From Nocardioidaceae bacterium SCSIO 66511 (GTDB lineage Bacteria > Actinomycetota > Actinomycetes > Propionibacteriales > Nocardioidaceae), in contig CP095846.1 of the NCBI GenBank assembly GCA_023100825.1, forward strand, positions 3,534,001-3,598,000: 64,000 nucleotides of DNA. The letters are read 5' to 3'. The notes beneath the pieces were generated by a model. The model ran no database searches and was not told the origin of the DNA. It was given only the letters and a program-made list of their open reading frames with translations. The position numbers were made by a program, and so were the translations under genes. This document shows positions 1,961 to 30,829 of this stretch, piece after piece. Within the stretch, counting starts at the first letter, position 1, and each line of letters begins with the position of its first letter.

Positions 1961-2064
1961 TGCGTAAGTGTCGCTGACCAGGCGTGACGTCGCGGCATCG
2001 GCACGGCGGCGGAGCGGCCTTTGCCGGTCCGCCTCGATTTCGCGGAGTCGCTCGGGCCGTCGTT

Positions 2065-2143
2065 TACCAAGTAAACATGGTGAAACTCCGCTCTGCGTGA
2101 CAGATGCGCCGTGCAAAGCGGAAGGTTGCCGTTCCCGGTGGTA
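2065..2143. repeat. 79-bp structured intergenic repeat, copy A
   Basis: First of three gap-free 79-bp copies (others at 17351 and 28630). It begins TACCA and ends TGGTA, a short terminal inverted repeat. The first 25 bases are identical in all copies and fold as GTTTAC-CAA-GTAAAC using two flanking bases. An internal stem pairs 2087-2099 with 2110-2122, by hand 12 of 13 positions including two G-T pairs. It lies upstream of the EamA gene and divergent from the MgtE_N gene. No protein is encoded consistently across copies. It may be a MITE-like or REP-like element; identity is unknown. Confidence 0.8.
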
Positions 2144-2197
2144 CGTACGTGGCTGACGTGGCAGAAGTCTGCTCACTCGCGCCGATCGTCGTGCGGT

Positions 2198-2270
2198 TTG
2201 CCTTGGTACCAAGGCAAGCGGTCACCGTCCCAAGGAACACTCCCCGTGGACAGTGACAACCGTCCTTGGG
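2198..2270. repeat. Two consecutive inverted repeats in the EamA/MgtE_N intergenic region
   Basis: A perfect 20-bp palindrome, TTGCCTTGGTACCAAGGCAA, occupies 2198-2217. It is followed by an 8-bp perfect inverted repeat, CCCAAGGA at 2229-2236 and TCCTTGGG at 2263-2270. Both contain the core CCTTGG/CCAAGG. They could be operator sites, a terminator-like structure or part of the composite repeat that starts at 2065. No second copy of the 20-mer was noticed in the window. Confidence 0.7.
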
Positions 2271-2282
2271 AAGCAACTCACC

Positions 2283-2434
2283 TTACCCCGCGGCCGCCCC
2301 GAAGTGGCAGGACGGCCGCCAAGCAACCGAGCCGAAGTGGCGCCTTCGCGCGCCGCCGCGTCTTTGCATCAACCGAAGTAGGCGAGGGAGCCGACAGCGA
2401 CGAGAAGCGCAGCGGCGGGTGGTCGCCGAAACCA
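2283..2434 (+). repeat. 83-bp shared block plus one ~51-bp degenerate unit
   Basis: 2283-2365 aligns without gaps to 28751-28833. By hand count it matches at about 62 of 83 positions, rising to 45 of 51 from the shared GCCGCCAA onward; both copies end CGCCGCGTCTTT. 2384-2434 then matches the degenerate unit family near 28.4-28.9 kb (GCCGAC, CGAGAAGCG, AGCGG and GTGGTCG in the same order). The same order of modules after a 79-bp element occurs at copy C, which suggests a composite element. The segment 1961-2497 otherwise holds no supported gene. Confidence 0.65.
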
Positions 2435-13393: not shown

Positions 13394-13404
13394 GCTCCGC
13401 GAAA

Positions 13405-13485
13405 TACCACGGGCCCATAGGAAACCCCGCCGCTACGTAGCAAGTTTGCTACCGAGCGGCGACGAATTGCTACGGGCCCGTGGTA
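13405..13485. terminator. Nested palindrome between convergent folP2 and LOG genes
   Basis: The outer arms 13405-13420 and 13470-13485 match at 15 of 16 positions (core TACCACGGGCCC). Inside, CGCCGCT (13428-13434) pairs with AGCGGCG (13455-13461), and GTAGCAA (13437-13443) faces TTGCTAC (13446-13452). The whole 113-bp gap folds into one long interrupted hairpin. Its position suggests a bidirectional terminator; the complexity also fits a palindromic mobile repeat. Confidence 0.72.
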
Positions 13486-13507
13486 ATCCACGTCCCGCCC
13501 GTACGCC

Positions 13508-17326: not shown

Positions 17327-17350
17327 CGCCCCTTCGGTTCAGTGGTCGAT

Positions 17351-17429
17351 TACCAAGTAAACATGGTGAAACTCCACCTTGCATGGCAGATACGCCGTGC
17401 AAAGTGAGAGGCTGCCATGCCCGCTGGTA
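17351..17429. repeat. 79-bp structured intergenic repeat, copy B
   Basis: Same length as copies A and C, beginning TACCA and ending TGGTA. The internal stem is 17373-17385 with 17396-17408 (about 11 of 13 pairs), and two further G-C pairs can extend it. Position 4 of the stem is A-T here and in copy C, but G-C in copy A, a compensating change. The left hairpin has one mismatch (GATTAC against GTAAAC). This copy lacks the downstream 83-bp block and the ~53-bp units. The rest of the gap 17430-17596 shows no other feature. Confidence 0.8.
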
Positions 17430-17596
17430 CGTAAGCGGCGAGCTGTCGCCCGACCGAACACCACAGCGGGCGAATGGCGGCAGCCCGTACGTACCCCGAT
17501 CGGCGTACGTGCGGAGCCTCCCCACGAGCGACGACGCGCACCCCCGTCGGACGCGACGATCGAGACGATCGTTCGCCACCACCAACGGGAGTCACC

Positions 17597-27370: not shown

Positions 27371-28351
27371 ATGTCGTTGAACGAGTCGATGGTGGGTCTG
27401 CGGATGAGCGTACGCACGCTCGTACCCGGTGAGGTCGGCCCGACCGGCGGTCCGGCGATGACCGATGTGATCGGACGCGTACTCGCAGTCGACGCCGGCC
27501 ATGCGACGATCGAGCGGCGCGACGGCGAGCTCGTCGACATCCGAATCGAGGACGTAGTCGTGGCGCGGCAGGTGCCCGACGGACGTCGGCGGGTTCGTAC
27601 CCGCCCCGCGCTCGACTTCACCGCCGACGAGCTCGCCCGGATCTGTACCCGTGGCTGGCCGCCGATCGAGACCGAGCCCCTCGGCGAATGGCAGCTGCGA
27701 GCGGCGGATGGCTTCACCGGCAGGGCAAACTCCGCGGCAGTGCACGGAGACCCGGGTCTACCGTTGTCCGACGCCCTCACGCGGATCACGCACTTCTACG
27801 CAGAGCGCGACCTGCCGGCAAAGGCGCAGGTGATCGACGGTTCGGTGTGGGAGTCCAGGTTCGCGGAGGCCGGCTGGGTGGGTATCGGCGGCACGCACGA
27901 CCACGCGATCGTGCAGGTCGCGGACCTTCGTGATGCCGTGACGCACGTACCTCGCGAAGACCATGACGTCAGCGTCACCGACCGCGCGGACGACGACTGG
28001 CTCGGGTTATACGGGCGTGCCGCGACCAGCGCACCTGCAGCTGCCCGCGCCGTCCTCGAAGGTCCGCCGACGGTCGGATTCGTACGCATCGGCGACCCGC
28101 TCATCGCGATCGGCCGCGTCGTCGTCACCGGTGAATGGGCCGGCATGAGCTGCGTCGAAGTCGCACCGGCACAGCAACGACATGGCCTCGGCCGGCGCGT
28201 CGTCGACGCATCGCTGCGTTGGGCCACCGAACACGGCGCCGACAAGGCGTACCTGCAGACGATGGCCCACAATGATGCGGCGCTCGCCCTGTACGCGCGG
28301 TACGGATTCGCCGACCATCACACGTATCGGTATCTGACCCCGGGTGGGTAG
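27371..28351 (+). CDS. GNAT-family N-acetyltransferase with N-terminal extension
   Basis: 326 residues. The catalytic GNAT domain is C-terminal (about 195-320): VEVAPAQQRHGLGRRVVDA is the acetyl-CoA loop and AYLQTMAHNDAALALYARYG the C-terminal motif. The first 190 residues include a small beta domain (VIGRVLAVDAGHATIERRDG) and a second degenerate GNAT-like half. Divergent from fdxA with 110 bp between. A ~770-bp non-coding island follows. Substrate unknown. Confidence 0.85.
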   Translation: MSLNESMVGLRMSVRTLVPGEVGPTGGPAMTDVIGRVLAVDAGHATIERRDGELVDIRIEDVVVARQVPDGRRRVRTRPALDFTADELARICTRGWPPIETEPLGEWQLRAADGFTGRANSAAVHGDPGLPLSDALTRITHFYAERDLPAKAQVIDGSVWESRFAEAGWVGIGGTHDHAIVQVADLRDAVTHVPREDHDVSVTDRADDDWLGLYGRAATSAPAAARAVLEGPPTVGFVRIGDPLIAIGRVVVTGEWAGMSCVEVAPAQQRHGLGRRVVDASLRWATEHGADKAYLQTMAHNDAALALYARYGFADHHTYRYLTPGG

Positions 28352-28355
28352 CCCG

Positions 28356-28515
28356 CTTCGGTTCGATTACCGCCGCCTCGGCTCGGTTTCGCTGTCGGCT
28401 CTCCCGTTTCTTCGATACGACTACTCACCGCTTCGCTTCTCGCTTCGGTCGGCATTCCCGCTCCTTCGGCGCGACCACCCGTCTGCCTGATTTCCGCCTC
28501 GCTGTCGGCATCCCG
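28356..28515 (-). repeat. Three tandem degenerate ~53-bp units (minus orientation)
   Basis: Units at 28356-28406, 28407-28460 and 28461-28515 (51, 54 and 55 bp). Read on the minus strand, each begins CGGGA, then GCCGAC, a variable purine-rich middle (CGAG or CGAA), GGC or GCGG, then GTNGTCG and CGAAG. The third unit matches the plus-oriented unit at 28905 very closely (CAGGCAG followed by CGGGT and GTCG). On the plus strand the region looks like a TTCGCTTC-rich pyrimidine tract. No gene is supported between 28352 and 29116. Confidence 0.7.
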
Positions 28516-28629
28516 TCGCGTTCTGGCTCGGCAAAGGACGCGGCGACGCGGGAGCCGCAGCTACGACCTCGGGTTGCTTGCCGGCTACCCCGGACCGGTC
28601 GGCCTTGGCGGGGTCGGTGGGTGGTCGTT

Positions 28630-28708
28630 TACCAAGTAAACATGGTGAAACTCCACTTAGCACGGCATGGGCACCGTGCAAAGTGGGACGCTGCCGAGCC
28701 CATTGGTA
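28630..28708. repeat. 79-bp structured intergenic repeat, copy C
   Basis: Terminal inverted repeat TACCAA (28630-28635) and TTGGTA (28703-28708), the longest of the three copies. Left hairpin GTTTAC-CAA-GTAAAC at 28627-28641. The internal stem 28652-28664 with 28675-28687 pairs at 12 of 13 positions. Column 4 is A-T (G-C in copy A), and column 12 is C-G (T-G in A and B), so pairing is kept through substitutions. The block CCGTGCAAAG on the 3-prime arm is invariant in all copies. Confidence 0.8.
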
Positions 28709-28750
28709 CGCCAGCGACTACCGGTACGGATGTGACGTCGTAACCGAACG

Positions 28751-28833
28751 TTACCCCGATCCCATATTAAGGTGGCGAGGAAGCCGCCAACCAACCGAAC
28801 CGAAATGACGCCTCCGCGCGTCGCCGCGTCTTT
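28751..28833 (+). repeat. 83-bp shared block, second copy
   Basis: Gap-free match to 2283-2365: both begin TTACCCCG and end CGTCTTT, and GCCGCCAA lies 32 bases in from the start in both. The left third is poorly conserved and the right two-thirds well conserved. It lies 43 bp after 79-bp copy C, against 140 bp after copy A. No reading frame is preserved between the copies. Confidence 0.65.
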
Positions 28834-28849
28834 TTGCCGGCCAAAGGGC

Positions 28850-28959
28850 CGGGAATGCCGACCGCGAGCGGACGCAGGCAGACGTGTGGTCGAGCCGAAG
28901 CAACAGGGAAAGCCGACCGCGAGCCGGAATCAGGCAGTCGGGTAGTCGAACGGGCAGAG
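28850..28959 (+). repeat. Two tandem ~55-bp units in plus orientation
   Basis: Units 28850-28904 and 28905-28959 share GCCGACCGCGAG, CAGGCAG and the GTCG end with the minus-oriented units upstream of copy C. A third unit seems to begin at 28960 and decays. The inverted arrangement, units-element-block-units, gives the island the shape of a composite repeat with long imperfect inverted flanks. 28960-29060 shows nothing further. Confidence 0.68.
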
Positions 28960-29063
28960 CGGGGATGCGGGCCGACACGACACCCACAGGTACGACCCCG
29001 CCGAACCGCATTCGCAGAATCTCTTGCCGCCGAGGCGTGCGCGGGGTCAGAATCGACGTATCA

Positions 29064-29103
29064 GTGTTGCGCTATCCAATCATGGTTGCGCAATATGCAA
29101 CAC
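29064..29103. promoter_or_regulatory. Operator-like repeats upstream of fhs
   Basis: GTGTTGC (29064-29070) and GCAACAC (29097-29103) form a perfect 7-bp inverted repeat. Inside it GTTGCGC occurs twice (29066 and 29085, 19 bp apart), and GTTGCGCAATATGCAAC (29085-29101) is a 5-bp-arm palindrome. The form recalls IclR-family boxes, but the regulator is unknown. The sites end 2 bases before AGGAGG (29106-29111) of fhs, so a bound protein would block initiation. Confidence 0.6.
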
Positions 29104-29116
29104 CTAGGAGGCACTG

Positions 29117-30829
29117 ATGACAGAGCCCGCGACCTCCATCCCGTCCGACCTGGCGATCTCGCGGGCTGCCGTCCCGCGTCCGCTCACCGAGGTCGCTGCC
29201 GAGATGGGCATCGGCGCACACCTACTCGAACCCTACGGACACGCCGCCGCGAAGATCTCCCTCGACGCGATCGATGAGCTCCGCGATCGACCGCGTGCGA
29301 AGTACGTCGTCGTCAGCGCGATGACGCCGACCCCGCTCGGCACCGGCAAGACAACGACTTCGGTCGGCCTCGCCCAAGGCTTCAAACACATCGGCAAGCT
29401 GGGCATCGCGGCACTGCGACAGCCCTCGATGGGGCCGACGTTCGGCATCAAGGGAGGCGCTGCCGGAGGCGGCTACTCCCAGGTGATCCCGATGGAGGCG
29501 CTGAACCTGCACCTCACCGGCGATATGCACGCGGTCACCGCGGCGCACAACCTACTGTCGGCGATGCTGGCCAACCACCTGCACAAGGGCAATGCACTAC
29601 GCATCGACCCGCACCGCATCACCTGGCGGCGCGTACTCGACGTCAACGATCGCGACCTACGCCAAATCGTCAGCGGCCTCGGCGGGCGTACGAACGGCAC
29701 CCCGGCCGAGACGGGCTTCGACATCACGGCCGCGAGCGAGGTGATGGCACTGCTCGCGCTGTCCACCTCACTACGAGATCTACGCGAACGCCTCGGCCGC
29801 ATCGTCGTCGCGTACGACGTGGACGGCGAACCCGTCACCGCCGAGATGCTCAAGGCGGCGGGGTCGATGTGCGTACTCCTGCGCGATGCGCTCCAGCCGA
29901 ACCTGATGCAGACCGTCGAGCAGACGCCGGTCCTCATCCACTGCGGGCCGTTCGGCAACATCGCCACCGGCAACTCGTCCGTCGTCGCCGACCTGATCGC
30001 GATCCACGGCGGCGACTACCTCGTCACCGAAGCCGGGTTCGGCGCCGACATCGGGGCCGAGAAGTTCTTCAACATCAAGTGCCGAGCATCCGGACTCACC
30101 CCGGACGCTGCCGTCGTGGTCGCCGGCGTACGCGATCTGAAGACGCACTCCGGCAAGTACAAAGTGACCGCCGGTAAGCCGCTGCCCGAGCAGATGCTGG
30201 TCGAGAATCCCGACGACGTGCACGCCGGAGCATCGAACCTGCGGCGCCAGCTTGCGAACATTCGCCGGCACGGCGTCAACCCGGTCGTCGCCGTGAACGC
30301 CTTCCCGAGTGACTACGAAAGCGAACAACAGGCGATCCTCGACATCGCCGCAGAGGAAGGCGCGTACGCGGCGGTGAGCCACCACTTCACCCGGGGCGGC
30401 AAGGGCGCAATCGACCTCGCCCAGGCCGTTGCGGCCGCATGCGACGCGCCGTCGTCGTACGAGCGCCTCTACCCCGACGACATGTCGTTGACCGACAAGA
30501 TCGACACGATCGCCCGCGAGATGTACGGCGCCGACGGCATCGACGTGTCACCGGTCGCCGCACGCCAGCTGCAGTCGTACGAACAGAACGGCTTCGGCAA
30601 CCTTCCGGTGTGCATCGCGAAGACGCATCTCTCCCTCACCGACGATCCGAGTCGCAAGGGGGCACCGACCGGCTGGCGACTGCCCGTACGCGAAGTGCGC
30701 GCATCCGTCGGTGCCGGGTTCATCTACCCGATCTGTGGGACGATGCAGACGATGCCCGGCCTCTCCTCGGCGCCCGCAGCAGAGCGGATCGACATCGACG
30801 AGGAGGGCAACATCGTCGGGCTGTCGTAG
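29117..30829 (+). CDS. fhs: Formate-tetrahydrofolate ligase
   Basis: 570 residues. ATP-dependent ligase making 10-formyl-tetrahydrofolate from formate. The N-terminal P-loop is TPLGTGKTTTSVGLAQG (about 72), followed by the family stretches RQPSMGPTFGIKGGAAGGGY and GFDITAASEVMALLAL; the C-terminus has SVGAGFIYPICG. Length is typical. The ATG at 29117 has AGGAGG five bases upstream. The next gene encodes a methenyl-THF cyclohydrolase-like enzyme, so the pair links formate to the one-carbon pool. Probably repressed through the operator repeats at 29064. Confidence 0.95.
   Translation: MTEPATSIPSDLAISRAAVPRPLTEVAAEMGIGAHLLEPYGHAAAKISLDAIDELRDRPRAKYVVVSAMTPTPLGTGKTTTSVGLAQGFKHIGKLGIAALRQPSMGPTFGIKGGAAGGGYSQVIPMEALNLHLTGDMHAVTAAHNLLSAMLANHLHKGNALRIDPHRITWRRVLDVNDRDLRQIVSGLGGRTNGTPAETGFDITAASEVMALLALSTSLRDLRERLGRIVVAYDVDGEPVTAEMLKAAGSMCVLLRDALQPNLMQTVEQTPVLIHCGPFGNIATGNSSVVADLIAIHGGDYLVTEAGFGADIGAEKFFNIKCRASGLTPDAAVVVAGVRDLKTHSGKYKVTAGKPLPEQMLVENPDDVHAGASNLRRQLANIRRHGVNPVVAVNAFPSDYESEQQAILDIAAEEGAYAAVSHHFTRGGKGAIDLAQAVAAACDAPSSYERLYPDDMSLTDKIDTIAREMYGADGIDVSPVAARQLQSYEQNGFGNLPVCIAKTHLSLTDDPSRKGAPTGWRLPVREVRASVGAGFIYPICGTMQTMPGLSSAPAAERIDIDEEGNIVGLS

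Follow-up and report, generated by a model that had tools for sequence, protein, structure and literature searches.

The gap between a GNAT gene and fhs in this actinobacterial genome holds one defined element, the widespread part of which is a head of about 93 bp: a chain of short palindromes that recurs dozens of times in the same chromosome and, in other letters, across genera. We consider it probable that this island belongs to a family of dispersed, non-autonomous DNA elements that live in a REP/BIME- or MITE-like way and are mobilised by a protein encoded elsewhere. The window, which is the whole stretch of 64,000 nucleotides analysed, covers positions 3534001-3598000 of the single 4.61-Mb contig of this genome (G000); G001 is a sister species in the same genus. 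Neighbouring genes score above cut-off with the DapC_actino and FdxA_Actino models, on which basis we take the host as actinobacterial; fhs passes the cut-off of its NCBIfam model, and the GNAT product lies nearest to the N-acetylglutamate synthase model, below that model's cut-off. In window coordinates the island is laid out as follows.

28352..29116, no strand: the GNAT-fhs intergenic gap holding the element, 765 bp between the ORFs at 27371-28351 and 29117-30829
28356..28515, minus strand: left array of three degenerate ~54-bp units, from inverted pairs I1-I3 and pairwise identities
28516..28850, plus strand: type-1 core of ~335 bp, from an alignment of 35 copies (mean pairwise identity 80%)
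28524..28550, no strand: left inner arm, 81% complementary to 28817-28843 (inverted pair I4)
28622..28714, plus strand: head of ~93 bp with palindrome A, hairpin B and a degenerate A' tail (model R2, 77.2 bits, E 9e-23; itself one of the 51 rows used to build R2)
28627..28650, plus strand: palindrome A, a 24-mer motif, from genome-wide motif matches
28653..28686, plus strand: hairpin B, centred 31 bp from the midpoint of A
28817..28843, no strand: right inner arm (inverted pair I4)
28850..28959, plus strand: right array, two ~54-bp units in the opposite orientation to those on the left

The original prediction had read the island as a composite element or hot spot rather than ordinary spacer, with unit arrays in opposite orientation around a 79-bp repeat. 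Its 765-bp gap is exact, the last base of GNAT being 28351 and the first of fhs 29117, and the arrays do read leftward (~28356-28515) and rightward (~28850-28959) around a core with a repeated head, as inverted pairs I1-I4 attest. The 79-bp copy proves to be a piece of the longer head at 28622-28714. The units at 28461-28515 and 28905-28959 are inverted copies of one another but hardly near identical, agreeing at 42 of 56 aligned positions (75%); the better inverted partner of the former is 28850-28904 (46/57, 81%). Shuffled unit controls gave a mean identity of 54% and a maximum of 66%.

Dispersal within the genome is extensive. A search with the 605-bp stretch met many other places in its own genome: 117 matching pieces after scoring 40 of 131 candidates, with 76-82% identity at the 39 best non-self places. 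The 24-mer of palindrome A has 71 genome matches at three or fewer mismatches, and its reversed control has none. Among the fetched loci, 74 heads were counted at up to five mismatches. By pattern, 39 are type 1, with a core like that in the GNAT-fhs gap, 16 are type 2, in which a second head variant ('beta') follows 134-155 nt downstream of the first, and 19 are others, with neither inner arm detected in seven, only the left in nine and only the right in three. The window itself holds three further heads.

2057..2149, plus strand: head of a type-2 copy (R2 match)
2191..2284, plus strand: second head, variant 'beta' (A is GTTTGCCTTGGTACCAAGGCAAAC-like), in tandem behind the first in the same type-2 copy (R2, E 4e-11)
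17343..17435, plus strand: head with no arm detected, directly past a gene's stop codon (R2 match)

A weak R2 match at 13399-13493 on the minus strand (E 0.0065) is possibly a decayed head.

In G000 the head is usually enclosed by long inverted arms and by arrays of ~54-bp units, a composite that reaches up to ~600 bp; these terminal arms and units are present in most copies and went undetected in seven of the 74 heads. Unit matches number 129, against 10 for the reversed control; of the 100 that were listed, 90 have a head no more than 700 bp away and 10 are elsewhere. All 90 point inward, 45/45 on the left side and 45/45 on the right, so opposite orientation is a rule of the element. Unit matches at G000:C1 3088522-3089158, 2604904-2604975 and 3524090 have none of the 74 heads nearby and are possible decayed elements. 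The sister species showed one large composite of the G000 kind, with inverted arms and flanking units (L120 1912-2020; G001:C1, ~968.4 kb), when 15 of 119 candidates were scored; the other sister copies seen are short heads.

Pairwise identity among the 35 aligned type-1 cores ranges from 65 to 97%, and the 97%-identical pair lies 1.9 Mb apart. We count this pair, and the 71 matches set against a control of zero, as evidence of dispersal. In the closest pair, GCGACTAC marks where similarity begins, and an inverted GTCGC within a unit marks where it stops. The left limit of this pair is matched by one other of the four pairs compared and differs in two, and no consistent target-site duplication appears at the limits of the four. 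In the cores, 75 of 299 columns are invariant against 6.2 expected under a uniform rate; this unevenness is only a hint of constraint, since shared ancestry of the copies inflates it.

The head is a chain of palindrome A (about 24-34 bp), hairpin B and A', the last either full or reduced to a degenerate or half copy. In the sister, A is almost constant, TTTACCATGT-NN-ACATGGTAAA, and in all 11 copies seen with two A sites the A starts are 62 bp apart. The triplets flanking A there (L045, L051, L056-L065, L108-L117) are of few types (ATG/CAT, ACC/GGT, ACG/CGT) and usually pair; left and right are sometimes mixed, as if halves had been exchanged at A. The sequence of A differs from genome to genome; within a genome it hardly changes in G234 but is loose in G125. 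B varies rather little in G042 and G037. The centres of A and B are 31 bp apart wherever both palindromes were recovered in 40 loci of four other genomes, the script having misplaced or missed one of them in a few mutated copies (L144, L145, L156, L171, L173). Over all 74 G000 heads, unselected for form, 70 carry B at +31 and form 8 or more of its 12 pairs; L079, L083, L088 and L089 are the exceptions. A cross-genome alignment (A3) of 51 chosen heads from 11 genomes is gap-free at this spacing. It takes in 28 of the 40 loci, 10 of the 74 G000 heads, 8 of 32 sister rows and L125, L127, L129, L132 and L134, and leans to well-formed copies because ill-fitting rows were removed on inspection: L131 (centre misjudged by the script), L133 (B at +33.5), L171 and L173. 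L131 and L133 nonetheless match R2. A appears to behave like a sequence-specific site, and B more like a structure preserved because it is symmetric.

The 24-mer of A is confined to two of 197 genomes of the family, G000 and G001, so covariance models were needed to see the wider group. Model R1, built on 55 heads (34 of the 74 G000 heads and 21 of the sister's 32 oriented rows), detects the family at E<=0.01 in 39 of 293 genomes sampled from the order, in 12 of 38 genera. R2 finds them in 33 of 394 genomes of the class and 15 of 138 genera at E<=1e-5, and in two of 396 genomes of the phylum, G000 and one family member, at a stricter E<=1e-7; both cut-offs and samples differ among these counts. 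Ten phylum-sample genomes of 7-10 Mb, among those listed, are all negative, and a 7.9-Mb genome of the class sample (G681) is matched at one place on both strands (3e-8). Copy numbers per genome are lower bounds, as at most 14 (R1) or 10 (R2) candidates were scored in each. Some of the weak class matches may be other hairpins; L184, the sole match outside the order that was inspected, has the same head layout. An exact A pattern met one MAG contig in a genome contig collection from which this genome and its near relatives are possibly absent, and we take that hit as chance. It is the head, and not the arms, that recurs between genera.

Comparison with relatives argues that the element arrived by insertion. 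The sister is collinear with G000 around the GNAT-fhs locus and lacks the element there (L118, G001:C1:747000-748400), with 172 nt between the aligned flanks against 705 nt in G000. Its gap holds another strong hairpin of ~61 nt, CGCGAGTGGCGCA...TGCGCCACTCGCG, which fits a hot spot. The reading of the island as a composite element or hot spot is thus supported, with the same composite present dozens of times in G000 and missing at this junction in the sister; in this one relative the sequence is not conserved as a single block at the locus, the finding that would have spoken for a local regulatory role. Different repeats seem to use the same gap in the two species. The sister hairpin leaves no clean empty site to read, so we turned to a copy in G042 that lies between convergent stop codons. 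Matches to this query occur in 21 of 24 genomes of that genus (G042 included), and nine relatives, whose two flanks share a contig, could be scored. In six the junction is short and lacks the element (G129, G073, G094, G120, G079, G135), and in three it is occupied by other DNA (G084, G056, G111); no R2 head was found in the nine junctions (L186-L194) at E<=0.01. We count these six, with the sister GNAT-fhs gap, as evidence of insertion. In G073 and G084 (L187, L186) the gap between the orthologous convergent genes carries other small palindromic or tandem repeats. We compared 23 sister loci, of which two overlap and one (L062) lacks an A site, with the G000 element loci; in no case did the shared flank exceed 200 bp, the only long matches being those of L055 to the element itself. 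The loci are few and so are the shared sites expected by chance, which means that this result opposes vertical conservation more than it supports any mechanism. At the place of the head at 17343 the sister has ~1.9 kb of other DNA, uninformative on absence.

Copies favour the 3' ends of genes, in five of six genomes taken together. Gene calls came from a simple codon-based finder trained on 32 window ORFs and applied unchanged to the other genomes. Intergenic positions account for 71 of 74 heads in G000 (32 convergent, 31 codirectional, 8 divergent), 38 of 40 loci in four other genomes (19, 15 and 4) and 19 of 20 in the sister (3, 14 and 2). The background, 28 window gaps longer than 60 bp, is small and includes element gaps; it has 5 convergent, 13 codirectional and 10 divergent, and the convergent-to-divergent balance of the copies differs from it (Fisher p 0.0009). 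Gene 3' ends face the element on 168 of 256 sides against 23 of 56 in the window gaps (p 0.0008): 95/142 in G000, 53/76 in the four other genomes and 20/38, or no bias, in the sister. In some cases a copy takes up almost the whole gap from one stop codon to the other.

Pairing in the head is maintained through two-sided changes. Across the 51 heads, 161 cells carry two-sided pair changes, against 47 with shuffling and 18-32 with slid partners. These cross-genome counts are inflated, as the models that located heads outside G000 and G001 had pairing and spacing built in; because the models reward pairing, the within-genome test is the better one. In G234, the 13 fetched copies (also fetched by R1) give 22 two-sided cells where shuffling gives 8.8; every one of the 22 falls in B, and A is almost invariant. 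Counting the pairs that take two or more Watson-Crick types inside a single genome gives six in G234, four in G001, three in G037, two in G000 and one each in G125 and G042. The within-genome effect is therefore strong in one genome and weak in several.

These counts bear on whether the symmetry serves RNA or DNA. It is very improbable that the element is a structured non-coding RNA or a cis-regulatory leader. The core at 28524-28843, folded as single-strand DNA, does far better than its shuffles (z = -5.4), and the long stem of 35 G000 cores leans to A·C over G·U (90 against 69 cells; 29 against 13 pairs, p 0.02, the pairs not being independent), which on the opposite strand reads as a G·U lean, the pattern expected of a minus-strand RNA. 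Selection for a plus-strand RNA should leave more G·U than A·C. The A3 heads, however, show no G·U preference, with 34 G·U against 47 A·C cells and 17 against 24 genome-by-pair events (p 0.35); we disfavour the RNA reading. G000 heads alone split by part, B with 102 G·U and 183 A·C and A with 80 and 20, each through few pairs. Nor do the codirectional copies prefer an orientation toward genes (17 ++, 14 --), and Rfam has no match above gathering in the window (four below, E 1-6.4). A plus-strand G·U excess from RNAalifold is discounted, since that structure was chosen with G·U allowed; it disappears, leaning the opposite way, with pairs common to both strands' structures. A coding reading was rejected as well, the 76-codon frame being open in only 16 of 35 copies. 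As the wobble counts name no consistent RNA strand, palindromes at the level of DNA are favoured, and a better fit is offered by symmetry of DNA, as a duplex dyad or an extruded hairpin, or by a palindrome-repairing process.

A mobiliser was sought in several ways. The Y1/RAYT family (PF01797) has no match in either genome of the genus, G000 or G001, at E<=10; the same model matched in 10 of 14 control genomes, six of them above cut-off. Among 143 proteins (at least 80 residues, trimmed to 330) flanking 72 fetched G000 loci, with two window-only heads excluded, no recurrent transposase was found in the 25 commonest of 186 Pfam families, and no neighbour-gene enrichment was seen in the families listed. 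One exact pattern, searched in a viral collection with a phage origin in mind, met no stretches.

Our preferred explanation, the dispersed element, would work as follows. A protein made elsewhere would recognise palindrome A, the palindromes would be extruded as single-strand or cruciform DNA, and the same protein would copy the element to new places, so that mobility would be the cause of the dispersal and a single strand its probable intermediate. Copies may survive chiefly a short way downstream of stop codons, and most of all in convergent gaps, as places where they would do least harm or where a two-sided hairpin could also end transcription from both sides; the host may draw some benefit from the element. 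Against this explanation stand the missing mobilising gene, the lack of an established target-site duplication, the left limit of similarity that lies elsewhere in two of four pairs, the sister without a 3'-end bias, the looseness of A in G125, the fairly constant B of G042 and G037, and the lean of the G000 long stem to A·C over G·T.

It is unlikely, in our judgement, that the copies are essentially bidirectional transcription terminators or stabilisers of mRNA 3' ends, grown similar by gene conversion or repeated capture. The 3' ends that face the element in G000 and the four other genomes would suit this, as would the snug fit between stop codons, the CTTTT that follows a GC-rich stem in the inner arms and the two terminator-like sites found at the right inner arm against 0.8 expected. 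Termination, however, needs neither a recurring A, nor 31-bp spacing, nor composites of 600 bp; 14 of the 128 intergenic copies lie between divergent genes, and the unbiased sister fits poorly. We give similarly little credence to chromosome-organising or supercoil-absorbing sites, in which palindromes about three helical turns apart would bind a dimeric protein, for example at positively supercoiled convergent junctions. The 31-bp centre spacing, the 62-bp A-A' spacing of all 11 double-A sister copies, the near-invariant A of G001 and G234 and the convergent bias agree with such sites, but sister species have no positions in common, A differs between genomes, and in G234 the letters of B change with pairing kept. 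Both roles are compatible secondary uses of a dispersed element and not its exclusive rivals.

An ordinary MITE, a deletion derivative of an IS whose long inverted arms would be transposase-binding ends, seems less likely still. It would account for the long arms and units, the 80% mean identity of the 35 cores and the two recent copies bounded by matching inverted ends; it sits badly with the seven G000 heads lacking a detectable inner arm, the single arm-bearing sister composite (15 of 119 candidates scored), the recurrence between genera of the head instead of the arms, and the lack of a consistent target duplication at the limits compared. It is tempting to speculate further that the dispersed element represents an undescribed class of actinobacterial mobile DNA, made of phased 31-bp palindrome chains with drifting letters in which spacing and pairing are kept at the level of DNA, A is read by a non-RAYT protein that spreads the chains and convergent-stop gaps are preferred. 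This is possible, yet we hold it to be rather less than an even chance. A literature search found no description of the element; coverage of subscription papers was poor, and one may be in print.

The genome-specific A site offers a handle for finding the protein. Copies that fit so tightly between convergent stop codons also allow a direct test of whether the element acts in termination or supercoiling. If the family is REP-like and widespread in Actinobacteridae, it would imply a second way to spread hairpin DNA, since RAYT transposases are the usual hypothesis and the Actinobacteridae sampled in PMC6006769, as far as its relevant sections go, have one Y1 subclass.

MITEs such as Correia elements and RUP are non-autonomous, intergenic and bear inverted arms, and tandem or bidirectional intrinsic terminators place hairpins between convergent stop codons. 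The element resembles the former in all three respects, but its recurring part is an internal palindrome chain and no target duplication is established. It resembles the latter in its hairpins between convergent stop codons, and differs in having an A sequence that recurs within a genome and a fixed spacing. The closest likeness is to REP, BIME and REPIN sequences, which the sections of PMC6006769 and PMC3116915 devoted to them describe as short extragenic palindromes in dozens of copies, with genome-specific sequence, a conserved layout and inverted pairs. Their spread is usually ascribed, in corresponding parts of PMC3116915 and PMC3733652, to RAYT transposases, and the survey portion of PMC6006769 lists for the Actinobacteridae sampled only subclass 1.1 Y1 genes, apparently an IS200-like class. 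The five actinobacterial terms looked for are absent from the main text of PMC3733652 and from that of the MITE review PMC10969869. The CGTC-tagged REPs treated in a part of PMC3733652 are, like our element, dispersed palindromes with no known cognate transposase, but by eye the heads have no conserved CGTC. Unlike REP and REPIN, the element comes with no match to the Y1/RAYT model in G000 or G001, the two genomes searched, and, by eye, with no GTAG/GTGG hairpin foot common across genomes, GTGG lying near A in many G000 heads and not being common to other genomes. Because the RAYT partner and the tetranucleotide foot are missing, we do not file it as a REP. In layout and behaviour it is nevertheless REP/BIME-like, being extragenic, palindromic and present in many copies, with genome-specific letters, a conserved layout and inverted pairs, to which it adds a chain of palindromes at a fixed 31-bp spacing.
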